This document shows, one piece after another, positions 21,975 through 33,483 of a stretch of DNA of 64,000 nucleotides. Location of the stretch: contig JBFLZW010000049.1 of the NCBI GenBank assembly GCA_040755755.1, positions 1 through 64,000 of the forward strand, in the 5' to 3' direction. This stretch comes from a bacterium (GTDB taxonomy: Bacteria > SZUA-182 > DTGQ01). How positions within the stretch are numbered: the stretch's first letter is position 1; every line of letters begins with the position of its first letter. Below the pieces are notes generated by a model. It had not been told where the DNA came from. It did not search any database and saw only the letters and a list, made by a program, of their open reading frames with translations. Made by a program: the position numbers and the translations under genes.

Positions 21975-23195
21975 ATGGCCATATTTGAATACCGCGCCCT
22001 CGATAGGCAGGGAAAATCCGTCAAGGGGTTGATCGATGCCGACAGCCCGCAGGATGCTCAGGCAAAATTACGGCGGGACAACATCTATCCCTTCAACCTC
22101 AAAATCACTACCGCAGCCCATAAGCGCCTGTCGAAAAACGAGCTTTTTACCCTGCTCCAGCCGAAAACCAAGACCAGGGAGATAGCCGTCATAACCCGGC
22201 AGTTAGCCACGCTCCTCAAGGCCGGCCTGCCCCTGATGCAGGCCCTGGCCGCGCTGGTTGATCAGATCGATGCCGAGCACACCAAAAAAATCTTCATCGA
22301 TATCCGTGAGAAGGTCAAGGGCGGCATGCCGCTGTCCAAAGCGATGTCAGAGCATCCCCAGGTTTTCTTTCGGCTGTATGTGCAGATGGTCCGGGCCGGA
22401 GAAGCCAGCGGATCTCTGGACCATGTTCTGGCCAGCCTGGCTAATTACCTGGAAAAAAAGATCCAGCAGAGAAATAAGATCCTCTCCACCCTGGCCTATC
22501 CGGCATTCATGCTCTTGATTGGAGTGGCTGTTCTGACTTTCCTGATGATCTATGTCATTCCGACCATCACGAATATCTTTGTGGAGATGAAGCAGAGCCT
22601 TCCCCTGCCTACGCTGGTCCTCATCCGGTCAAGTGAATTGCTGCAAAGGTTCTGGCTCCCGCTGCTGCCGGCTCTTGCCCTGCTCGTCCTGGCATTCAAT
22701 AAATACCGTCATACGGAGTCCGGCGGGCTTTTCGTTGACCGGACCTTACTCAAACTGCCAGTCTTCGGAGAGCTTATCCGCAAGATCGATACCGCCCGCT
22801 TTGCTCAAACCCTCGGCATCCTGGTCTGCAACGGGGTCCCTATCCTGGACTCATTAGCCATTGTCAAGGATGTCATCACCAACCGGCTGCTGGCCAACGC
22901 CATAGAAGAAGCACGCCACTGCCTCCAGCAGGGAGAGGACCTGGCAGTCCCCCTGAAAAAGGCCAAGGTATTTCCCCCGATTGTGACCCATATGATCGCC
23001 ATCGGAGAAAAAAGCGGACAATTGGAAGAGATGCTGGCCAATATTGCCGAAGGCTATGCCAATGAGGTTGACATGACCGTCAACAGCCTGACATCCATCC
23101 TCGAACCAGCTATTATCCTGCTGATGGGAGCCATCGTCGCCTTTGTGGTCCTGTCCATACTCCTGCCCATATTCGAGATGAACCAGATAGTTTAA
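21975..23195 (+). CDS. gspF: Type II secretion inner-membrane platform protein GspF (locus 1)
   Basis: This platform protein contacts GspE and GspL. It has 406 residues with the family layout: an N-terminal cytoplasmic FEYRALDRQGKSVKGLIDADS domain, then two T2SSF repeats. These carry ITRQLATLLKAGLPLMQAL near 75-93 and FAQTLGILVCNGVPILDSLAIV near 276-297, and membrane helices near 170, 220 and 380. It ends the gspCDEF cassette. Its TAA overlaps the stop of the opposite-strand hybrid kinase by two bases. No pseudopilin or gspL/M gene follows. Confidence 0.93.
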   Translation: MAIFEYRALDRQGKSVKGLIDADSPQDAQAKLRRDNIYPFNLKITTAAHKRLSKNELFTLLQPKTKTREIAVITRQLATLLKAGLPLMQALAALVDQIDAEHTKKIFIDIREKVKGGMPLSKAMSEHPQVFFRLYVQMVRAGEASGSLDHVLASLANYLEKKIQQRNKILSTLAYPAFMLLIGVAVLTFLMIYVIPTITNIFVEMKQSLPLPTLVLIRSSELLQRFWLPLLPALALLVLAFNKYRHTESGGLFVDRTLLKLPVFGELIRKIDTARFAQTLGILVCNGVPILDSLAIVKDVITNRLLANAIEEARHCLQQGEDLAVPLKKAKVFPPIVTHMIAIGEKSGQLEEMLANIAEGYANEVDMTVNSLTSILEPAIILLMGAIVAFVVLSILLPIFEMNQIV

Positions 23196-26002
23196 GGGTG
23201 CCCTTGTAACACCCTGTATAATACCTCACCCAATTCTCTGGTCTCAAATGGCTTGGCAACGACACCACTGAATCCGTATCGCTCATAATCCGACATGATG
23301 GTATCATTGGAATATCCACTTGAAACAATCGCTTTTACCCCGGGATCTATCGCACGCAGCTTCTGAACGGTCTCTTTGCCCCCCATACCTCCCGGGACAG
23401 TCAAATCCAGTATGACAGCATCGAAGGCTTCTTTCGACCCGATCGCCTTTTTATACAGATCGATCGCCTCCTGGCCGTTACTCGCAAATTCAACGCTATA
23501 CCCCAGAAGCTTGAGCATCCGTCCTACCAAGTTTCTGATATCGAATTGATCATCCATACATAAAATCTTCCCTTTTCCCGGACGAGGTTTTCTCTCTGCG
23601 ATACTATCCTGAATGGAAACAGCCTTTCCCGATGCAGGAAGATAGAGATGAAAGGTTGTGCCAGCTCCTGACCGGGACTCAACCGTAATATGTCCCTTAT
23701 GTTTTTTCATGATGGAATAGGTAATGGCCAGACCGAGACCGCTTCCTTTTGATTTCGTGCTGAAGTAGGGATCGAATATTTTGGCAAGAATCTCTTTCGG
23801 TATTCCAGTTCCATAATCCTTGATTGATATCTTTACATAATTGCCTGCCCTCAGAGGCAGGCCGCCGCTTTCCTGAAGCGTGACATTCTCTGCAAATACC
23901 TCGACTTTTCCACCTCCGGGCATAGCTTGTTCAGCATTAATCAATAAGTTATTCAGTACTTGATTTATTTGTCCCTCATCTATTTCAACCGCCCAGAGGT
24001 CATCCGGAATAGACAATTCATATCTGATATTAGAGCCACTCAGGGAGAATTTCACGGCACTAGCGACTAACTTGGCAATGGACAGCCGTTTTCTTACGGG
24101 ATCCCCCCCTTTGGAGAAGGTAAGCAATTGCTGCGTCAGGTTCTTTGTCTGCCGGGATGCTTTCTTCGTTTCCTCCAGGAGCTCACCGATATCCTCACCG
24201 GATTTGACGGAAAGCTCCATGAGAGAGAGATTCCCTAGCACGCCCGTTAGTAAATTATTAAAGTCATGCGCAATGCCTCCCGCCAGGACACCGAGAGATT
24301 CAAGCTTTTGGGCCTTCAGCATTTCTTCTTCCATTCTCTTGCGTTCCGTGATGTCCCGCAGAACGGAAAGGATGCCAACCGGCTGTCCCTGAGAATTCAG
24401 CAGGGGATTAATCCTGGCCTCTGTCCAAACTGTGGACTTTTCCTGACGGGTAACCTCAAGCTCCAGGGTCCGGGACATAAACCGCCTCCCCGGATTTAGG
24501 TCCACTGTCTTGATTATTTCCTGAAAGATTTTCCGGACAATCAGCAAAGAATCCTCGGTGAACCATTCCTGAATTCCCTGGCTCGTGGACTCTTCACTGC
24601 TGTAGCCACGAAGGCGCTGAATAGAAGGGCTTACATAGGTGAGCTGAAGGTTGAGATCCACCGTAAATATTACGTCCGTTATGTTCTCCGCCAGGAGCCG
24701 ATAGTCATGGACAGCATTATCGGCGCGTATTCGTTCCATCTCAATGAGCCTTCCCTTGGCCTCGTCCAACTCCTGGTGATAGGAGCTTAAGACCCTCTGG
24801 AGATCATTGAAAGCCCTTGTCAGATCGCCAACCTCATCGAGGGAGGTAACTTCAACTTCTGCATTTAACGCCTCTTTCGTATTCTGTATCCTTACCATTT
24901 GCCTGGTCACATCCTGGACGGCCGATGAGGTATCATGGGCCACATAGTAGCTGATAACCGCCACAAATGCCAGGAGGTAACATCCCATGACCGGGAAGTA
25001 GAATAACACGTATCGTATTTTGCTCTCCTTTGCGGGATCGGGATTCAGTCTGATAATAGTTCCGGCGTAAAGGCCCTGAAAGGGCCCTTCGAGGGGCAAA
25101 ACCCGCAGAGCTGTTCCCGGAGCATCTTTGATCTTGGCTGTGCCTTCCGGATCAGCGAGGAGGCGACTCCTGATATCATAATTATCAGGAATGATGGAGG
25201 GCTTTCGGGTAAGGTATTTCCCGCCCGAGTCAACAACAAATACGCTTTCGGCCAAAGGCCTGCTTTCCAGATATTCCTTGAGCTCGTGTCTGGAAGCAAA
25301 TTTATCCGCACTTTTTTTGAAGGAGATCAGCACTGCATTTCCTGACTCTATCTCATCATGCCAGAATATATCGTTAATTCGGGAAATTGAGAAAACAACA
25401 GTAAAAAGGAACACCATAGCTGAAAGTGTAAGCACCGCAGTAATAAATCTGGCCTTTATCGGCATCCTGAAACCGATATCCCCGGCACTGCCCGATGTTG
25501 CCTTCAGGATGATAACCATCTTATGTCTCGCATATACGTACACCGCCAGGGAAGCACAGATAGTATATGCCCAAATAAGCCCCATAGATAAGAGTCTTTC
25601 TGACAAGGGATAGAATTTGAACCAATATGAATCCACCCCAAGAGCAACGAAAGCCACGCCGGATAAAATGATGAGAAGAAATTGCCCGGTTATCTTTAAG
25701 GGTAAGTTAAAAGCGGCTGTCCTTATCTCCTGGAGATGCCCTGGCTCTTTGCTGTCTGGCCTGTAAAAAGCCCTGATGGGTTTTAATGAGCGATATACCA
25801 GAATGGAGAGAGCTGCCATGATAATGGGCGTAAAGATCGTAAAGTTTAAAAAGTCAGCTTTTCTTATGGCTTCCGTATAATCTACAACAAGGGGATCAGC
25901 AATCTTTAAAATAATTGCCCCGCTGACAATTACCAGGTTTATGAATAATAAAATGTCCCGGCAAATATTTTTCCCTTTTACCATGTTATTTAAACCTGCC
26001 AT
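23192..26002 (-). CDS. Membrane hybrid histidine kinase with PAS and receiver domains
   Basis: This 936-residue sensor has four N-terminal membrane helices (about 15-150), then two more enclosing an external sensing region (about 190-340). A HAMP-like linker follows, then a PAS domain (about 430-550) with YVSPSIQRLRGYS. The kinase core has the H-box GGIAHDFNNLLTGVLGNLSL near 575. The ATPase has DYGTGIPKEIL and SKGSGLGLAITYSI. A C-terminal receiver (about 815-935) carries the phospho-acceptor Asp in VILDLTVPGG. The HDFNNLL form is typical of hybrid kinases with a non-DNA-binding output. Its start overlaps the radical SAM gene by 17 bases; an alternative ATG at 25984 leaves one base. No separate output regulator is adjacent. 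The signal is unknown. Confidence 0.9.
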   Translation of the reverse strand: MAGLNNMVKGKNICRDILLFINLVIVSGAIILKIADPLVVDYTEAIRKADFLNFTIFTPIIMAALSILVYRSLKPIRAFYRPDSKEPGHLQEIRTAAFNLPLKITGQFLLIILSGVAFVALGVDSYWFKFYPLSERLLSMGLIWAYTICASLAVYVYARHKMVIILKATSGSAGDIGFRMPIKARFITAVLTLSAMVFLFTVVFSISRINDIFWHDEIESGNAVLISFKKSADKFASRHELKEYLESRPLAESVFVVDSGGKYLTRKPSIIPDNYDIRSRLLADPEGTAKIKDAPGTALRVLPLEGPFQGLYAGTIIRLNPDPAKESKIRYVLFYFPVMGCYLLAFVAVISYYVAHDTSSAVQDVTRQMVRIQNTKEALNAEVEVTSLDEVGDLTRAFNDLQRVLSSYHQELDEAKGRLIEMERIRADNAVHDYRLLAENITDVIFTVDLNLQLTYVSPSIQRLRGYSSEESTSQGIQEWFTEDSLLIVRKIFQEIIKTVDLNPGRRFMSRTLELEVTRQEKSTVWTEARINPLLNSQGQPVGILSVLRDITERKRMEEEMLKAQKLESLGVLAGGIAHDFNNLLTGVLGNLSLMELSVKSGEDIGELLEETKKASRQTKNLTQQLLTFSKGGDPVRKRLSIAKLVASAVKFSLSGSNIRYELSIPDDLWAVEIDEGQINQVLNNLLINAEQAMPGGGKVEVFAENVTLQESGGLPLRAGNYVKISIKDYGTGIPKEILAKIFDPYFSTKSKGSGLGLAITYSIMKKHKGHITVESRSGAGTTFHLYLPASGKAVSIQDSIAERKPRPGKGKILCMDDQFDIRNLVGRMLKLLGYSVEFASNGQEAIDLYKKAIGSKEAFDAVILDLTVPGGMGGKETVQKLRAIDPGVKAIVSSGYSNDTIMSDYERYGFSGVVAKPFETRELGEVLYRVLQGHP

Positions 26003-27266
26003 ATGAGTATCTTCTATTTGCCTGGTTCAGTTTTATCGTCAGACCAAGCTGTGTGCGAGACTTTAAAAGCCTCTTAATGATGGAGGGAATTGAATAAAAC
26101 TGCCTGGTTGCCCAGTTATGTCCCTCTTGGAGCTCATCAGGAGACATCATCTTCGGGATAAATACGACATATTCAGAATTATACTTTGACCAGTCATAGT
26201 GCAGTATCCTCTGCTCAGCCTTCAATCTTTGGAAAAGCACGGTATTGGGATATGGGGTTAAGATGCTGAAGCTGATTCCATCTATGGCCGCTTTCACCGC
26301 TGTCTCCAGGGTTCTCTCGAATATACTTTTGTCATCAGTATCAAAGCCGAAAATTATTCCTGCCAGAACCGCTATCCCGGCATCATGGAACTTGCGGATA
26401 TCATCCTTCAGAGTATCAACCTTATTAAATCCCTTGTTGACGGTCATCAGGCTTACCTGAGATACCGATTCTATTCCGACGAACAATCCTATGCAACCGC
26501 TCCGGGAAGCCATATCCAGAAGCTCACGATCTCTGGCTATGGTTATCGAACCCTGGCCAAGCCACTTTTTCCCAAGGGATATTAACCTCTTGAACAGCTC
26601 TTGAGCATAGGCGGGAGTACCTGCTATATTGTCATCCCAGAAAATAAACGTATCGTCTTGGAAGGTTTCTATCTCGCTGATTACCTCATCTACGGGCCGA
26701 AGCCTTTGGCCTTTACCGTAAACAGAGGCTAACGCACAGAAATCACAGCTAAAAGGACAGCCTCTTGATGCCTGGATCACATCTGAGATAATGTATTTTT
26801 CTCTCTTGAGCAGGTCTCTGCGTGCAAAGGGGAGCGACCGCAATTCAGGGGCATTCGAACGGTAAAAACGTTTCAGGTTATTCCTTTTAAAATCCTCGAT
26901 AAGCGCGGGCCAGGTGTCCTCCGCCTCGCCTATCACCACAGCGTCGGCATGCCCCTTCACCTCATCAGGAAATAACGATGCATGAGGGCCTCCCATAACA
27001 ACTTTTTTGCCCTTCTTTTTAAATATTGAGGCGAGCTCATATGCCCTCTGCGCAAAAGGTGTAACAAAGGTAATGCCTACTAAATCAGCATCCGTTTGGA
27101 AATCAATAGGCTCAACCATTTCATCAGAAATTGATACCTCTACATCAGGAGGCGTAAGCGCCGCTATATACGGCATGGTAAGCTGGGCAGGCTTAAAGAT
27201 AAAATTCTCTCTCTTGCCCAGTCCTCCGTAATCAGCATGAAGTGGCTGAATGAGCTCTACTTTCAT
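25986..27266 (-). CDS. B12-binding radical SAM protein
   Basis: The 426-residue protein has an N-terminal cobalamin-binding Rossmann domain (about 1-140) with VVMGGPHASLFPDE and AVVIGEAEDTWPALIEDF. A radical SAM domain follows with Cys170, Cys174 and Cys177 in the C-x3-C-x2-C motif and GIESVSQ near 266. The DxHxxG cobalamin-ligand motif is absent, as in many class B enzymes. Such proteins methylate or rearrange unactivated carbons, for example in lipids, hopanoids, chlorins or natural products; the substrate cannot be told. The start at 27266 follows GGGGGGAAC; an in-frame GTG lies five codons upstream. A candidate promoter (TTGATA, 17-base spacer, TACCAT; complement of 27332-27360) precedes it. 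It is translationally coupled to the hybrid kinase. Confidence 0.88.
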   Translation of the reverse strand: MKVELIQPLHADYGGLGKRENFIFKPAQLTMPYIAALTPPDVEVSISDEMVEPIDFQTDADLVGITFVTPFAQRAYELASIFKKKGKKVVMGGPHASLFPDEVKGHADAVVIGEAEDTWPALIEDFKRNNLKRFYRSNAPELRSLPFARRDLLKREKYIISDVIQASRGCPFSCDFCALASVYGKGQRLRPVDEVISEIETFQDDTFIFWDDNIAGTPAYAQELFKRLISLGKKWLGQGSITIARDRELLDMASRSGCIGLFVGIESVSQVSLMTVNKGFNKVDTLKDDIRKFHDAGIAVLAGIIFGFDTDDKSIFERTLETAVKAAIDGISFSILTPYPNTVLFQRLKAEQRILHYDWSKYNSEYVVFIPKMMSPDELQEGHNWATRQFYSIPSIIKRLLKSRTQLGLTIKLNQANRRYSYGRFK

Positions 27267-27503
27267 AGATGTTCCCCCCACATCTCATCAACCTGATTGT
27301 TCAACTGAGTAAATTTTTTAATTCATTAACATGGTAAATTCAATAGATATATTTATCAATATAGCTTATATATTATTAGCTATTTATTATCTTTTTTAAT
27401 TATACCATGCCTATAATGCCATAACAATATATCAGTCCCTCAGATGAGCTAACAAAAAGATAGTCCTTCCCCTTTTCAAAAGAGGTTTCAGTTCAATGGG
27501 GGC

Positions 27504-27826
27504 CTGTCCCTTTTCCTGCTATCAGTTTGTATTAGCTGCTGTCTATGGAGAATGCTTTGCCGAGGTAATAGAGGGCAGGCAAAGATCGACGCACTGACAA
27601 GCCATAAGGTCAAGGGCACGCTGGAGGCCGGACATGTTATATCCAGAGACATGTTATATCCAGAGGAGATATCGGCTTTCTTGGAGAGGCCGGCACAAAA
27701 TACCTGGAGGTGAAAAGGAATAACCAGGGTGAATCTTCTGGTATAGACCTTCATAAAGGTTTTTTAGGGATAGACTTTTTGCCTGATTCGATCAGATGGG
27801 AAAACTTGCAGGTTGATGTGGGATGA
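27504..27826 (+). pseudogene. Frame-broken remnant of an unidentified gene
   Basis: One frame reads KVKGTLEAGHVIS up to a perfect 17-bp tandem duplication at 27631-27664. The following protein-like text, GFLGEAGTKYLEVKRNN then GESSGIDLHKGFLGIDFLP and IRWENLQVDVG, is in another frame and ends at 27826. Removing one 17-bp copy joins both into one open frame. The frame is open from at least 27504, but no start is seen. The family was not recognised. A chance open frame cannot be excluded. Confidence 0.35.
27631..27665. repeat. Perfect 17-bp tandem duplication
   Basis: GACATGTTATATCCAGA occurs twice back to back (27631-27647 and 27648-27664), with one further matching base. The unit length is not a multiple of three. 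It breaks the reading frame of the putative remnant around it. It looks like a replication-slippage product. Confidence 0.85.
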
Positions 27827-27834
27827 TGAATCAT

Positions 27835-27865
27835 TTGCTTGACGATGACGATAAATAAGTATAAT
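27835..27865 (+). promoter_or_regulatory. Candidate promoter for the HTH/coiled-coil pair
   Basis: A perfect TATAAT lies at 27860-27865. It is preceded by TTGACG (27839-27844, short 15-base spacer) or TTGCTT (27835-27840, 19-base spacer). It sits 48 bases upstream of the HTH gene ATG. Confidence 0.45.
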
Positions 27866-27912
27866 CTTAGATAGTGAGGTATAAACCAAAATAAATAAAG
27901 GATACAGGAACT

Positions 27913-28104
27913 ATGGAAAAAGAATATATGACTCTTAGCGAAGTAGCTCAATTTTTAAAACTAAGTGTACCTACTATCAAGAATTATCTCAGAGATAAGA
28001 GAATACCGGCTTACAAAATAGGTGGAAGATGGCTTTTTGAAAAAAATGAGATAAATGAATGGGTTGCTTCTCAGAGGCAATCAGTAAAGGTAGCCACAAG
28101 ATGA
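27913..28104 (+). CDS. Small MerR/excisionase-type helix-turn-helix protein
   Basis: The 63-residue protein is a single HTH_17 (excisionase-type) domain. It reads MTLSEVAQFLKLSVPTIKNYL, then RDKRIPAYKIGGRWLF as recognition helix and wing, then EINEWVASQ. This domain bends or binds DNA in phage excisionases and in many small regulators. No integrase gene is adjacent; the xerD-like gene is almost 6 kb away and looks like housekeeping. Its TGA overlaps the ATG of the next gene (ATGA at 28101), so the two are translationally coupled. Autoregulation of the pair is possible but not shown. Confidence 0.85.
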   Translation: MEKEYMTLSEVAQFLKLSVPTIKNYLRDKRIPAYKIGGRWLFEKNEINEWVASQRQSVKVATR

Positions 28105-28505
28105 GCATCGAGGCAATAGAACTGTTCGATATCTTCTCTGAGACCTTCGGCAAGGAAAAAGCTCAGGCAGCGGTAAGGGATATTGAAACCCTGATAAGTG
28201 ACCATAAGCGGGAATTGGCAACGAAAGAGGATATCCAGAAGATTGATACCCGACTATCCGAAACCGAGCTTAAGCTGACCAAAGAGATCAGAGAAGTAGA
28301 GCTTAAGCTGACCAAAGAGATCAGAGAAGTAGAGCTTAAGCTGACCAGGGAAATAGAGTTAAACCGTAGAGAAATTGAAGCGGTAAAATTGGAGATAGAA
28401 AAGGCAAAATCCAGCACGGTCAAATGGGTTGTCGGTTGGGTTGCAGGTCTTTTGATTGCCTATACAGGAGCAATTTTCACCTTGCTTATGCTGGTCAAAA
28501 AATAG
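28101..28505 (+). CDS. Coiled-coil protein with C-terminal membrane helix (DUF1640-like)
   Basis: The 134-residue protein opens with IEAIELFDIFSETFGKEKAQAAVRDIE. A long coiled coil (about 35-105) made of 11-residue LKLTKEIREVE repeats follows. One membrane helix (about 110-130) ends in KK. This is the pattern of the DUF1640/CCDC90-like family, whose bacterial role is unknown. The start at 28101 overlaps the HTH stop as ATGA; a longer in-frame start at 28059 would lie inside the HTH gene. Two perfect 33-bp copies and a partial third encode the repeats, so coiled-coil length could change by slippage. Confidence 0.75.
   Translation: MSIEAIELFDIFSETFGKEKAQAAVRDIETLISDHKRELATKEDIQKIDTRLSETELKLTKEIREVELKLTKEIREVELKLTREIELNRREIEAVKLEIEKAKSSTVKWVVGWVAGLLIAYTGAIFTLLMLVKK
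28266..28346 (+). repeat. 33-bp in-frame tandem repeat in the coiled-coil gene
   Basis: Two identical 33-bp units (28266-28298, 28299-28331) are followed by 15 bases of a third. Each encodes the 11 residues ELKLTKEIREV. The unit is a multiple of three, so gain or loss of copies would keep the frame and change rod length by one hendecad. Confidence 0.9.
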
Positions 28506-28713
28506 TCGGGCCGGTAAATGTTCTCTGCACTTATCCCAAAATATCGTAACGCATTGAAGCGGCTTTTGGACAGTATCACTTCAGAAAAATGCTGCATACT
28601 CACCAATTCTCGACTTTTTCACGAATCAATTTTCATCCGAGATGCCGATATAATATAGCCTATTAAATATCTTTTTCTAATCATTTCATGAATTTTTAAA
28701 TGGGGGATAAACC

Positions 28714-30831
28714 ATGAAAAGGCTGAGCTTGGTATCTGTACGATTGGCATCTGCATCTATAGTATACATAACTGTTATACTGCTGGCAGGCTGCTTTTTC
28801 TTCCAGAGCGCCTCGATAGCTTATTCGATGAGCCAACCGGCAGGAAAATCTCTCCGTTCAATAAGAACCGATCAAGCTGCATACCGTGCCGGGGGGCTGG
28901 GTTGGATCAGAAGGAATACCGAAAAAGAATCGTTACCTCAGTTTTCCAGTTGCAGAGCGTTGAAAGCTCGATTAAATGCCATGACCAAAGCATCAGGAGG
29001 AAAGAGCGGGACTCCCTTTGGAATATATGCTCCCAGGGCAACCTTTGGCTCCGGCAGATCCGGGCCGCTGTCCGGCCTGGTGGATTCCGGGGGAGATGGC
29101 GCGGATGATCATTCAACCACCAATGTCCAGGTGGCTGGCGTGGATGAATCAGATCAGGTCAAGAATGATGGCGGCTATATCTATATGGTGAAGGGAAAAA
29201 GCGTCAGGATTATCAAGGCGTATCCTGCCGGTGAGCTGCATGAGCTTCCCAGGATTGACTTTTCCGGCTCTTCGTTCAATCCCGCTCAGCTCTATGTGAA
29301 TGGGAATAAATTAGTCGTTATCGGCAGCGACTATCATGACTATCCCCAGCCTCTGGATGGGGGAACCGGGCCGGTGAAAACCATCACTCCAGGCCGTACG
29401 CTCTTTGCCGCCTCCTCATACCCCTCCTATCTGCCGCCATCTTCTCTCACCAGGGTGATTATCTACGATATAACCGACCGGGCAGGTGTCAGGGAAGAGC
29501 GAAATCTTACCTTTGAGGCTGATTATCTGCAATCGAGAAGAGTGGATGACACCCTCTATCTGATCATGAATCAATATCCTCAGTATATCGTAACTGCAAA
29601 TTCTCCTCAAGGGCTGGTTCCCCGGTATGCCGATTCCACCCGCTCTTGCGGGGATGAGCCTCTCTGCGATTGCGAGCAGGTATCCTATGTGCCCGGCTCT
29701 ACCGAATCTTCCTATCTCATCGTGGTAGCTATTCCGCTCCAGGACCCGGCCAAAGAGATCGGCAGTAAGGTAGTTCTCGGAGCAGGTCAGAACCTGTATG
29801 CTTCAAAAGATAACTTATACCTTGCAGAGATAAGCTATATTGATGAACAGGATCCTGCCCGGTATTATCTCAACGGCCCGCATACTCTTATTCATAAGTT
29901 CAGCTTTGACGATGTGAAAATCAGTTATGCAGGCAAAGGCAAGGTAGCGGGTTTTATCATCAATCAGTTCTGCATGGATGAATATGACCACCATTTCCGA
30001 ATAGCCACGAGCGGGAGATGGAATGCCAGGGATGAAGAAAACATTTCCAGTAATAATCTCTTTGTTCTCGACGAGGATATGAAACTGGTTGGGAGTATTG
30101 AAAATATCGCTCCGGGAGAGAACATCAAGTCAGTCAGATTCATGGGGGAGAGAGCTTATATAGTTACTTTCCTGCAGGTCGATCCCCTCTTTGTGATCTC
30201 GCTCAAAGACCCTTCAAATCCCCAGATACTTGGGCAGTTGAAAATTCCCGGCTACAGTGAATACCTGCACCCCTATGACGAAAACCACCTGATCGGCTTT
30301 GGCCGTGAGGTCGATCCCATCGAGGCCGATAAGCTTACTGCCGGCGGGGCTATCCCCTCCACAGCCCTTTTGGGTATGAAGCTTTCCCTGTTCGATGTGA
30401 GTGAAGTCACCCATCCCACAGAGGTATTCAAGGAAGTTATCGGCTACCGGCATACCGACTCCGAACTGCTGAGAGACCATAAGGCCCTGTTATTCAGCAA
30501 GGCCGATAACATCATGGCCTTCCCGGTTACGGTTACCCGCAAGATCGATCAGTCTGCGGATAAATACCAGGATTTCGAATATATCTTCCAGGGAGCCTAT
30601 TTTTACCAGCTCGATTTAACCAGCGGCTTCGAGAAAAAGGCAGCCATAACCCACTATGATAACCCGGATGAGGCTTTTCTGAAAATCGGATACCGCTACT
30701 ATGGCGGTGAAGACGAGATCAGGAGAATCATCTCCATCGGTGACCACTTCTATACCATATCCGACAGCAAGATCAAGGCGATCGGCAGGCAAACTTATGA
30801 TGAGGATATGGTGATTACTCTGGATAAGTAA
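28714..30831 (+). CDS. Lipoprotein with C-terminal beta-propeller domain
   Basis: This 705-residue exported protein has lipobox LLAGC with Cys27. Its conserved start FSSCRALKARLNAM and the block GVDESDQVKNDGGYIYMVKGKSVRIIKAYPAGEL (about 145-178) mark the secreted beta-propeller family (Beta_propel, COG4880 type). Repeats with VDDTLYLIMNQYPQYIV, NLFVLDEDMKLVGSIENIAPGENIKSVRFMGERAYIVTF and YSEYLHPYDENHLIGFG continue the blades. The family function is unknown. A TATAAT-like box lies at about 28650. It is a single gene that ends at a shared bidirectional terminator. Confidence 0.88.
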   Translation: MKRLSLVSVRLASASIVYITVILLAGCFFFQSASIAYSMSQPAGKSLRSIRTDQAAYRAGGLGWIRRNTEKESLPQFSSCRALKARLNAMTKASGGKSGTPFGIYAPRATFGSGRSGPLSGLVDSGGDGADDHSTTNVQVAGVDESDQVKNDGGYIYMVKGKSVRIIKAYPAGELHELPRIDFSGSSFNPAQLYVNGNKLVVIGSDYHDYPQPLDGGTGPVKTITPGRTLFAASSYPSYLPPSSLTRVIIYDITDRAGVREERNLTFEADYLQSRRVDDTLYLIMNQYPQYIVTANSPQGLVPRYADSTRSCGDEPLCDCEQVSYVPGSTESSYLIVVAIPLQDPAKEIGSKVVLGAGQNLYASKDNLYLAEISYIDEQDPARYYLNGPHTLIHKFSFDDVKISYAGKGKVAGFIINQFCMDEYDHHFRIATSGRWNARDEENISSNNLFVLDEDMKLVGSIENIAPGENIKSVRFMGERAYIVTFLQVDPLFVISLKDPSNPQILGQLKIPGYSEYLHPYDENHLIGFGREVDPIEADKLTAGGAIPSTALLGMKLSLFDVSEVTHPTEVFKEVIGYRHTDSELLRDHKALLFSKADNIMAFPVTVTRKIDQSADKYQDFEYIFQGAYFYQLDLTSGFEKKAAITHYDNPDEAFLKIGYRYYGGEDEIRRIISIGDHFYTISDSKIKAIGRQTYDEDMVITLDK

Positions 30832-30918: not shown

Positions 30919-33483
30919 TTATGGCAAATACTCATCCAGAGCATAGTTTACCATAGCCTGGACCTCACCTTTGACCTCAGGCCCCACACCGGCCATTTGC
31001 TCCAGAACAGAAGCGGGCAGGTCCTTGAAAAAGTTCTTGAGGATAAATTCAGGGTTAAGGATGCTGACAATCACCTTATCGGGTTGCTGATATACGGGCG
31101 TGCCATTCTGATCCCAGGTAAGGTCATTGAGCCAGACCGAGATCGTACAGGGCAGGGCGATCATATACTTGCCGCCTAAACCGACTATCTGCCGGGCATA
31201 ATAGGCAGAACACAATTTTATTTCCCCTACCCTGGCAAAGGGATTGTCTTCTTTGGTAATATCACCCACCGGAATATTGAAATCATTCCTGATCACGTGC
31301 CAGTCGTCACGTGCATACGGGGTGTTGCCAATAGCTGAAATGATGCTATTCTTTACTTCGCTCAGGAACTCAGGAGCGCTCTGCCCCTCATCCTTATTTC
31401 CGGCCAGGGGAATCTCCAGTTGTATGCCATACCCTTTCGTACCGGCATAGCCCCCTCCTCCTTCTGCCGCCCAGGCCTGGACAGCAGCCACTTCCTGTTG
31501 GGTATAGAATGGTGCCTGATGCTCATAGACCCATTCTCCACCCAGGATGGTAACGGCTGTCTTGACTATCTCTTTGGTATGGGTTTTAATCATGGCCGCA
31601 AACTGATCAAACCCTGGAGCACTCATGACATCCGCAAAGTAGAAGGCAAAAAGTGCCGATTCATCCAGGGTGTTGATATTGATGATATCATCTACCCCAT
31701 CCTGATCGCTGTCCTCTGTCCAGATGCCGACCTTGCAGGGCATACCCAGAGCATGATGTTGTCCCATGCTCATGGCATCATCGGCAAACGTGGGAGCACA
31801 TATCTCCAGCAGAATGCCGTAACTTCCCGCAGGGAAAGGCATGGTTTTTTCTTCAACCACCACCCAGGGATTAACCGGATCAGCACCCTCCTGGGGCACA
31901 AAGGAAAAGCCAGCTACCGCAGCCTTTACTGCCTGAACCGCTTCATTGTAAGCAACATCCACCCCTTTGCCAGCCGGAACACGGACTCTGCCCATTAGAA
32001 TGCTGGTAGAAAGCCTTGGGGTCAGGTGATTCGGATAGGAATAACTCTTCAACCCATTATTAACCATAGCCAGGAGTTGATTTTTAATCTCAGGCCCCAC
32101 ACCGGCCATTTGCTCCAGAACAGAAGCGGGCAGGTCCTTGAAAAAGTTCTTGAGGATAAATTCAGGGTTAAGGATGCTGACAATCACCTTATCGGGTTGC
32201 TGATATACGGGCGTGCCATTCTGATCCCAGGTAAGGTCATTGAGCCAGACCGAGATCGTACAGGGCAGGGCGATCATATACTTGCCGCCTAAACCGACTA
32301 TCTGCCGGGCATAATAGGCAGAACACAATTTTATTTCCCCTACCCTGGCAAAGGGATTGTCTTCTTTGGTAATATCACCCACCGGAATATTGAAATCATT
32401 CCTGATCACGTGCCAGTCGTCACGTGCATACGGGGTGTTGCCAATAGCTGAAATGATGCTATTCTTTACTTCGCTCAGGAACTCAGGAGCGCTCTGCCCC
32501 TCATCCTTATTTCCGGCCAGGGGAATCTCCAGTTGTATGCCATACCCTTTCGTACCGGCATAGCCCCCTCCTCCTTCTGCCGCCCAGGCCTGGACAGCAG
32601 CCACTTCCTGTTGGGTATAGAATGGTGCCTGATGCTCATAGACCCATTCTCCACCCAGGATGGTAACGGCTGTCTTGACTATCTCTTTGGTATGGGTTTT
32701 AATCATGGCCGCAAACTGATCAAACCCTGGAGCACTCATGACATCCGCAAAGTAGAAGGCAAAAAGTGCCGATTCATCCAGGGTGTTGATATTGATGATA
32801 TCATCTACCCCATCCTGATCGCTGTCCTCTGTCCAGATGCCGACCTTGCAGGGCATACCCAGAGCATGATGTTGTCCCATGCTCATGGCATCATCGGCAA
32901 ACGTGGGAGCACATATCTCCAGCAGAATGCCGTAACTTCCCGCAGGGAAAGGCATGGTTTTTTCTTCAACCACCACCCAGGGATTAACCGGATCAGCACC
33001 CTCCTGGGGCACAAAGGAAAAGCCAGCTACCGCAGCCTTTACTGCCTGGACCGCTTCATTATAAGCAACATCCACCCCTTTGCCAGCCGGAATAGGTATT
33101 TTACCCATTAATATGTTGGTGGACATGCTCACCGTTAATGTCTGGGCTAAACTGGTTACTCCATCGAGGGAAGCTGTGATTTGAGTAGTACCTGGAGCTT
33201 TGGCTGTAGCTATTCCATCAGTTCCGATAGTGGCTACTCCCTGTTCAGAGCTCAGCCAGGTGACTTGGTCACTGATATCCCGGGTACTCTCATCAGAATA
33301 AGTCCCAATAGCAGTAAAATTCTGTTTATCTCCCGAATAAGCGCGTGGATTTACCGGGTTAATAGCTATACTGGTAAGAATCTTGCCGTTATTACCTGAA
33401 TCCCAGGATCCACATCCGCAGGTAACTATCATGAAACCAGTAAACAAGACTACAAGAAGATAAATAAACCTATCGCGTACCAT
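30919..33483 (-). CDS. Big2-domain lipoprotein with a duplicated DUF302-like module
   Basis: The 854-residue exported protein has a signal peptide ending in IVTCGC (Cys22 or Cys24). A bacterial Ig-like Big2 domain (about 35-118) follows. Then come two copies of a 371-residue module (about 123-493 and 494-854). Within each module two sub-units share a core around HHALGMPCKVGIWTED and MIALPCTISVWLND, which resembles the LPC...V motif of DUF302 proteins. This similarity is my inference. The two modules are nearly identical in DNA, so the duplication is recent. The function is unknown; cell-surface adhesion or small-molecule binding are guesses. It sits alone between a terminator and a 190-base spacer. 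Confidence 0.85.
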   Translation of the reverse strand: MVRDRFIYLLVVLFTGFMIVTCGCGSWDSGNNGKILTSIAINPVNPRAYSGDKQNFTAIGTYSDESTRDISDQVTWLSSEQGVATIGTDGIATAKAPGTTQITASLDGVTSLAQTLTVSMSTNILMGKIPIPAGKGVDVAYNEAVQAVKAAVAGFSFVPQEGADPVNPWVVVEEKTMPFPAGSYGILLEICAPTFADDAMSMGQHHALGMPCKVGIWTEDSDQDGVDDIININTLDESALFAFYFADVMSAPGFDQFAAMIKTHTKEIVKTAVTILGGEWVYEHQAPFYTQQEVAAVQAWAAEGGGGYAGTKGYGIQLEIPLAGNKDEGQSAPEFLSEVKNSIISAIGNTPYARDDWHVIRNDFNIPVGDITKEDNPFARVGEIKLCSAYYARQIVGLGGKYMIALPCTISVWLNDLTWDQNGTPVYQQPDKVIVSILNPEFILKNFFKDLPASVLEQMAGVGPEIKNQLLAMVNNGLKSYSYPNHLTPRLSTSILMGRVRVPAGKGVDVAYNEAVQAVKAAVAGFSFVPQEGADPVNPWVVVEEKTMPFPAGSYGILLEICAPTFADDAMSMGQHHALGMPCKVGIWTEDSDQDGVDDIININTLDESALFAFYFADVMSAPGFDQFAAMIKTHTKEIVKTAVTILGGEWVYEHQAPFYTQQEVAAVQAWAAEGGGGYAGTKGYGIQLEIPLAGNKDEGQSAPEFLSEVKNSIISAIGNTPYARDDWHVIRNDFNIPVGDITKEDNPFARVGEIKLCSAYYARQIVGLGGKYMIALPCTISVWLNDLTWDQNGTPVYQQPDKVIVSILNPEFILKNFFKDLPASVLEQMAGVGPEVKGEVQAMVNYALDEYLP
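30976..31935 (-). repeat. Direct repeat, copy encoding the C-terminal module
   Basis: This stretch of about 960 bases matches 32089-33048 at an exact offset of 1,113 bp (371 codons). I found no mismatch by reading, and three different translated frames agree across it. Divergence begins sharply at both edges. Confidence 0.95.
32089..33048 (-). repeat. Direct repeat, copy encoding the N-terminal module
   Basis: This is the partner of 30976-31935. Just outside the perfect core, toward the Big2 domain, the copies differ by scattered substitutions and in the codons for GKIPIP versus GRVRVP. This suggests sequence homogenisation limited to the core. Confidence 0.95.

Follow-up and report, generated by a model that had tools for sequence, protein, structure and literature searches.

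Two small overlapping genes, one coding for an excisionase-type DNA-binding protein and one for a coiled-coil protein with a putative membrane helix, raise the question whether they form a unit and what such a unit would do. They are located in the window, the whole stretch of 64,000 bp of bacterial DNA that was analyzed. The genome of the window is referred to as G000 and the other genome of its genus as G001, both being draft assemblies. CC1 denotes the gene family of the coiled-coil protein, which is called the rod below.

An HTH gene is coupled to a rod gene

The excisionase-type assignment of the first protein, made in the initial annotation from the sequence, was confirmed by two family models, as PF12728 (HTH_17) scored 64 bits (cut-off 27) and TIGR01764 50.1 bits (cut-off 28.8). 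The described ATGA overlap with the 134-residue coiled-coil frame is present at 28101-28104, where the HTH gene (27913-28104) runs into the rod frame (28101-28505), and the perfect 33-bp in-frame repeats were recovered by TRF. A promoter of its own had also been proposed for the unit; a promoter-like TTGACG-N15-TATAAT is predicted at 27839-27865, and the block to which it belongs recurs in the genome (Table 1). As to the gene debris mentioned beside the unit, no ORF of at least 90 aa was detected at 27282-27912. Since sister loci hold both genes together, the pair in the window is not a chance arrangement, and the original observation is confirmed.

Three flanking genes scanned with Pfam code for a histidine kinase, a radical SAM protein and a beta-propeller protein, and a scan of five genes at 23192-30831 revealed no integrase. 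Upstream of the unit, a perfect 17-bp tandem repeat of 2.1 copies is located at 27631-27665. On the minus strand at 30919-33483, an 854-aa ORF contains two near-identical halves about 1.1 kb apart, a recent internal duplication, with antisense ORFs recurring at 31420 and 32533.

Table 1. Features of the two-gene unit in the window (positions of the whole stretch).
Feature	Position	Strand	Basis
Promoter block: conserved ATGAATCATTTGCTTGAC (27826-27843), -35 TTGACG (27839-27844), -10 TATAAT (27860-27865)	27826..27865	+	
DNA-binding protein of 63 aa (HTH_17, excisionase family), C-terminus KVATR	27913..28104	+	PF12728, TIGR01764, paralogs
Conserved 15-nt junction: tail codons of the DNA-binder and, for the rod gene, a Shine-Dalgarno-like AAAGG	28086..28100	+	sequence comparison
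CC1 coiled-coil protein, 134 aa, head-neck-stalk-anchor type	28101..28505	+	ORF, Pfam, alignment, AlphaFold model
Head-coding stretch, identical at 136/136 bases to CC1 of contig C48	28101..28236	+	sequence comparison
Neck LATKED	28215..28232	+	fits DUF1640 beta-layer motif [aliphatic]-A-T-K-[polar]-[DE] (part of PMC4786415)
2.5 perfect 33-bp repeats, 11-residue unit ELKLTKEIREV	28266..28347	+	TRF, period 33, 100% matches
Putative C-terminal membrane helix, about residues 109-131	28425..28493	+	read by eye; helical in the model at lower confidence

The pair is present in many copies in one genus

In total, 24 CC1 loci were identified, 17 in G000, six in G001 and one on an IMG/VR contig of 9595 bp (L151). 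Low-scoring generic coils (C69:27520, C27, C22, C19, C78:43387 and C18:161390) were dropped before this count. Seven other genomes of the phylum contained no CC1 locus, and among 386 genomes searched with the CC1 profile at E 1e-6 four had a match, two of which lie outside the genus. At the three readable places in these two distant genomes, no HTH gene directly precedes the match. A wider search of the 386 genomes with PF07798 (CCDC90-like, formerly DUF1640) gave matches in 32 at E 0.001, eight of them above the cut-off and both genus genomes included; in G002 it gave one weak row (4.2e-4). Among relatives outside the genus, those read by eye over 420 upstream bases showed no HTH gene in front. 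Searches of open-licence literature on DUF1640/CCDC90/MCUR1, excisionase coiled-coil and toxin-antitoxin brought up no description of a gene pair of this kind.

Recurrence of the gene pair in genomes, which the annotation had proposed as a check, was observed among paralogs, since both genes are intact in 11 of the 24 CC1 loci (in G000, G001 and IMG/VR). Judged by sequence comparison, the pair is a real, expanded and mosaic multi-copy cassette.

HTH genes of this kind also precede members of a second coil family, CC2, which is likewise multi-copy in G000 and G001. CC2 overlaps the HTH gene at contigs C55, C81 and C41, is preceded by a broken HTH gene at C72, C18 and C19, and has no evident membrane helix; a scan of viral contigs confirmed no CC2 relative. 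A third coil gene, CC3, which codes for a hydrophobic helix, lies behind CC1 in G001 C99; at C55:21277 it has the promoter motif 101 bases upstream. In G001 C88 (L213/L149), an HTH frame continues into a CC3-like membrane end as one ORF of 82 aa, which is followed by a CC2 gene and, from its sequence, looks like a fusion by deletion.

The rod protein resembles CCDC90-like proteins

The initial annotation had called the second protein DUF1640-like. This held in part: with 21.3 bits the window copy remains below the PF07798 cut-off of 33.5, while its paralogs L013 (46.5 bits) and L027 (38.0 bits) exceed it and the neck fits the DUF1640 beta-layer motif, which according to the part of PMC4786415 that describes it marks the start of the stalk. 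Two of the neck positions, K42 and D44, are near-invariant across the CC1 alignment. In an AlphaFold single-chain model the rod forms helices at residues 3-16 and 18-133 with a mean pLDDT of 86.9, dropping to 67-77 across the last 34 residues. The putative membrane helix (residues 109-131) is a reading by eye of a hydrophobic stretch.

Among solved structures, the rod sequence reached a best E of 0.091 with generic helices, and Foldseek with the rod model gave no match at E 0.001 or better; its top rows, ParD/ParDE complexes with E 0.87-1.0 over about 30 columns, were rejected as not significant. Plasmid and phage sequences searched by tblastn gave no match to the rod protein, and no toxin or holin model of Pfam or NCBIfam was matched above its cut-off. 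In a defence library, the HTH protein matched mad1 (42.8 bits, an HTH-domain match) and two methylases at 12-13 bits, and the coil protein matched LeoBC (17.3 bits). MADS defence (MAD1, NCBIfam NF047737) was considered and rejected, as 54.7 bits is below its cut-off of 80.

The stalk varies in length largely by units of 7, 11 and 18 residues. By TRF, tandem units occur in 10 of 20 CC1 genes and in nine of 10 CC2 genes given to the program. In the two families, periods of 21, 33 and 54 bp, together with multiples of the latter two, account for most cases; 12, 75 and 87 bp are exceptions. Units of 7, 11 and 18 residues fit coiled coils. The annotation had further suggested that repeat number, and thereby rod length, can vary: repeat make-up does differ between paralogs, and CC1 proteins range from 84 to 173 aa, a variation observed among paralogs only. 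Within this comparison of paralogs, the two genes co-occur and repeat number is not fixed, contrary to the pattern that had been named as evidence against a unit.

The DNA-binding gene is exchanged at a sharp junction

HTH proteins of paired units fall to 24% identity with the HTH protein of the window, and the rod heads stay close. In contig C48, a ribbon-helix-helix-like (RHH-like) protein of 54 aa, so classified by eye and giving no Pfam, PHROG or NCBIfam match at the thresholds used, takes the place of HTH_17 in front of the head-coding stretch identical to that of the window. RHH-like upstream genes were also found at C24:1668 and C1, broken in both. Between the window and C48, 138/141 rod bases and 14/15 junction bases are identical, and upstream of the junction this falls to 21/60. 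The same point ends the similarity of L005 and C48 (131/141 rod bases, then 16/60) and of L002 and C48 (128/141, then 16/60). Other pairs compared share 10 to 28 of the 60 upstream bases, except L005 and L038 (51/60), which have a DNA-binder of the same type. Between units with different DNA-binders, similarity stops at the 15-nt junction; this sharp border has the look of a natural device for swapping DNA-binding modules. Further downstream, the stalk and membrane end of the window rod find their best matches in other paralogs (L004, L026 and L012, then L003 with 59/60); the units are therefore mosaics.

The junction encodes the tail of the DNA-binder. Where an intact DNA-binder runs into a rod gene by ATGA (15 cases), its last five residues always fit [KRN][VAM][AT][TSIA][RK]. 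This tail is absent from seven HTH proteins without a rod gene (L103, L114, L121, L122, L127, L131 and L132), and the HTH gene directly before CC2 in G001 C99 (L142:11138-11359) shows neither overlap nor tail; L126 is a DNA-binder with a tail whose rod gene is lost. Because the CC1 loci had been found via the rod gene, the HTH profile was searched in G000 as a check on bias: 14 of its 22 matches lie in rod units, and none of the six that were read among the other eight has the tail. Junction bases including AAAGG persist in several solo rod copies. As AAAGG itself lies in the junction, conservation of these bases may reflect either the peptide or the ribosome site.

A promoter-like motif precedes many units

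The 18-bp motif GTGAATTATTTGCTTGAC, allowing up to three mismatches, matched 22 times in G000 and not at all as a reversed control. Fifteen of these matches precede CC1 or CC2 units, one precedes CC3, one a YgiT-finger pair, and five have no recognised unit behind them. Matches (and control matches) in other genomes numbered 7 (0) in G001, 8 (2) in G002, 13 (0) in G003 and 2 (2) in G004; the motif is not exclusive to the units, as G003 is without CC1. Three solo rod copies have kept the motif, 84 and 125 bases ahead of the rod in two and 262 in the third. Across 17 promoters, inverted repeats were not enriched (Fisher p 0.44) and direct repeats were marginally enriched (p 0.0495); the best single operator-like cases are direct repeats of both RHH-like units.

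The YgiT-finger pair at C72:95272 (L212 449-951) is a two-gene unit whose second gene carries the finger (48.8 bits) and whose first gene gave no NCBIfam match; by its sequence it is possibly a toxin-antitoxin pair. Upstream of both L004 and L007 a 140-bp repeat, 91% identical and in inverse orientation, was observed, probably an unrelated dispersed repeat.

The rod is retained more often than its partner

Besides the 11 loci with both genes intact, nine have an open rod gene with a broken or absent DNA-binder (L004, L009, L010, L013, L015, L019, L024, L027 and L030), one shows the reverse (L005) and in three both genes are broken (C61, C1 and G001 C57). L126, outside the 24, is a second reverse case, and the resulting 9-to-2 excess of rod retention is small and drawn from draft genomes. 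At C81, contrary to the trend in CC1, the HTH gene of the CC2 unit is intact and its rod carries a frameshift. Over the first 38 codons of the rod head, synonymous substitutions approach saturation and nonsynonymous ones are few. Median pN/pS values, limited by recombination between copies and by draft assembly, were 0.271 for paired-paired (55 pairs), 0.324 for solo-solo (36) and 0.254 for mixed comparisons (99); the solo pair L009-L010 has dN 0.099 and dS 1.471. By these substitution patterns, rod heads are under purifying selection, in solo copies too.

Some units lie on phage- or plasmid-like contigs

Four CC1 loci were found on three phage- or plasmid-like contigs (L151, C48 and G001 C99), in a scan for mobile genes that covered the surroundings of a minority of units and eight other genes in the neighbourhood of the window. 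The gene pair of the IMG/VR contig L151 is accompanied by genes for a resolvase, a D5_N primase and a primase-like protein, C48 carries a terminase small subunit gene, and G001 C99 an integrase, a primase-helicase and two CC1 units, with an integrase gene, an HTH gene and a CC2 gene in succession. Two of these contigs also encode HTH and coil in a single gene with a LRLPWWKKLFRK-like end, namely L151:2200-2829 (209 aa) and L142:1766-2236 (156 aa, in G001 C99). The two proteins are 42% identical to each other and their end looks amphipathic. The former scored 38.3 bits against a plasmid replication DNA-binding protein model (cut-off 85) and the latter 15.6 bits against RacA (cut-off 170), both below cut-off. 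Pfam gave no DUF536 row for the rod (E up to 1) or for L151:2200-2829 (E up to 0.01).

In G002 and G003, HTH_17 relatives (L114, L121, L122 and L127) precede, by no more than about 430 bases, tyrosine recombinases with similar N-termini, identified by Pfam for L114 and by similarity for the other three. From sequence they are possibly a family-wide integrative unit.

Possible functions of the unit

We tentatively regard the unit as a mobile-element accessory cassette, in which a membrane rod stands behind an exchangeable regulator, a reading that is possible rather than probable. The cassette would be carried at least in part by phage- or plasmid-like elements and would have multiplied within one bacterial genus. 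The DNA-binder may act on the promoter of the unit and so limit its own synthesis, and through translational coupling that of the rod as well. The rod, in turn, would oligomerise by its coiled coil. Its C-terminal helix would fix it to the inner membrane, leaving head and stalk on the cytoplasmic side, and the rod could serve there as a scaffold whose reach is set by stalk length. If the DNA-binder is a regulator and nothing more, an unrelated gene can replace it, and a unit can lose it yet retain the rod. Several findings stand against parts of this model: the tail is conserved in all 15 overlapping DNA-binders, which a mere regulator would not call for (the same bases may serve as a ribosome site), repeats in the 17 promoters give little sign of sites for self-regulation, the CC2 unit at C81 runs against the trend, the 9-to-2 excess is small, and the promoter motif also occurs in a genome without CC1.

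A bolder reading is a two-gene tether between DNA and membrane, in which the HTH- or RHH-like protein would bind DNA and its conserved tail would dock on the head of the membrane rod. Like RocS, pSK1 Par or TubY divided over two genes, the pair would then tie the DNA of an element or of the chromosome to the membrane. In RocS, a winged HTH at the N-terminus is combined with a coiled coil and, at the C-terminus, a membrane helix (PMC11500499); the one-gene HTH-coil layout on two of the three mobile contigs is like that of RocS and Par, and swaps of the DNA-binder with rod and tail kept fit a specificity module. Nevertheless, nine CC1 loci have a rod and no intact DNA-binder in cis, so that DNA-binders would have to act in trans, and DUF536 was not matched; we consider the tether somewhat unlikely. 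Less probable still, and in our view unlikely, is its fully modular form, in which one membrane rod with repeat-tuned length is joined at the 15-nt junction to different DNA-binding folds and which would stem from phage- or plasmid-like elements, namely from their replication regions. If true, a genome would have a collection of tethers that differ in DNA target and in reach. A regulator with a selected membrane rod would be the most economical mechanism.

That HTH and rod have no shared function, the former being a leftover excisionase of integrative elements and the latter a passenger, would agree with the HTH_17 relatives before tyrosine recombinases in sister genera and with the order integrase, HTH and CC2 in G001 C99. 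We judge it decidedly unlikely, as junction and tail survive swaps of the DNA-binder, rod heads are selected and the five genes scanned at and around the unit include no integrase. The initial annotation had also ventured a defence or toxin-antitoxin-like module. Small overlapping genes with the DNA-binder first, the motif ahead of the YgiT-finger pair and sub-cut-off matches of the rod to Phage_holin_3_6 (18.4 bits, cut-off 28.4) and alpha-xenorhabdolysin subunit A (15.1 bits, cut-off 125) would suit a toxin-antitoxin or lysis-like module, with the rod harming the membrane and the DNA-binder as antitoxin or repressor. A rod kept without an intact DNA-binder in nine loci, with its head under purifying selection, disfavours such a module; no toxin or holin model was matched above cut-off, and MAD1 stayed below its own. 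The guess of a defence or toxin-antitoxin-like module was not supported, and we consider the toxin-antitoxin or lysis-like reading highly improbable.

Comparison with known systems

Type II toxin-antitoxin systems with HTH or RHH antitoxins share with this unit small overlapping genes, the DNA-binder in first position and an own promoter. In nine of 24 CC1 loci, unlike in these systems, the second gene persists where the first is broken or absent, and no toxin model reaches its cut-off. RocS, pSK1 Par, RacA and TubY resemble the unit in having an HTH-type DNA-binding domain and a coiled coil; they are single polypeptides, whereas here two genes are involved, DUF536 was not matched and a like function is conjectural. 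The Bdr proteins of Borrelia have 11-residue repeats, one of their replicons, cp32, is a phage, and we know of no HTH partner for them. The comparison of these KID-repeat proteins with CC1 covered architecture. In the literature, Bdr is described as a paralogous family with KID/KIE repeats at the inner membrane, encoded on the cp32 and lp28 plasmids (PMC4370689), RocS as needed for pneumococcal chromosome segregation, with domains common to RocS and pSK1 Par and with membrane binding shown (PMC11500499), and membrane binding is named for TubY (PMC7762940).

CC1 also resembles the CCDC90-like/DUF1640 proteins (PF07798), comprising MCUR1, CCDC90B, yeast Put6/Put7 and prokaryotic relatives. Common to both are the head, the ATK neck motif, a stalk that forms a coiled coil and differs in length and, as read by eye, a hydrophobic helix at the C-terminus. 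To our knowledge, no bacterial role has been established for them. Such proteins occur in prokaryotes and mitochondria, as noted in the part of PMC4786415 consulted. Unlike the relatives outside the genus whose upstream bases were read, CC1 is coupled to an exchangeable DNA-binder; it is also multi-copy. A little-known genus that couples CCDC90-like rods to swappable DNA-binders in many copies would offer a genetic handle on this role, as retention, exchange and loss of each partner can be compared between copies.
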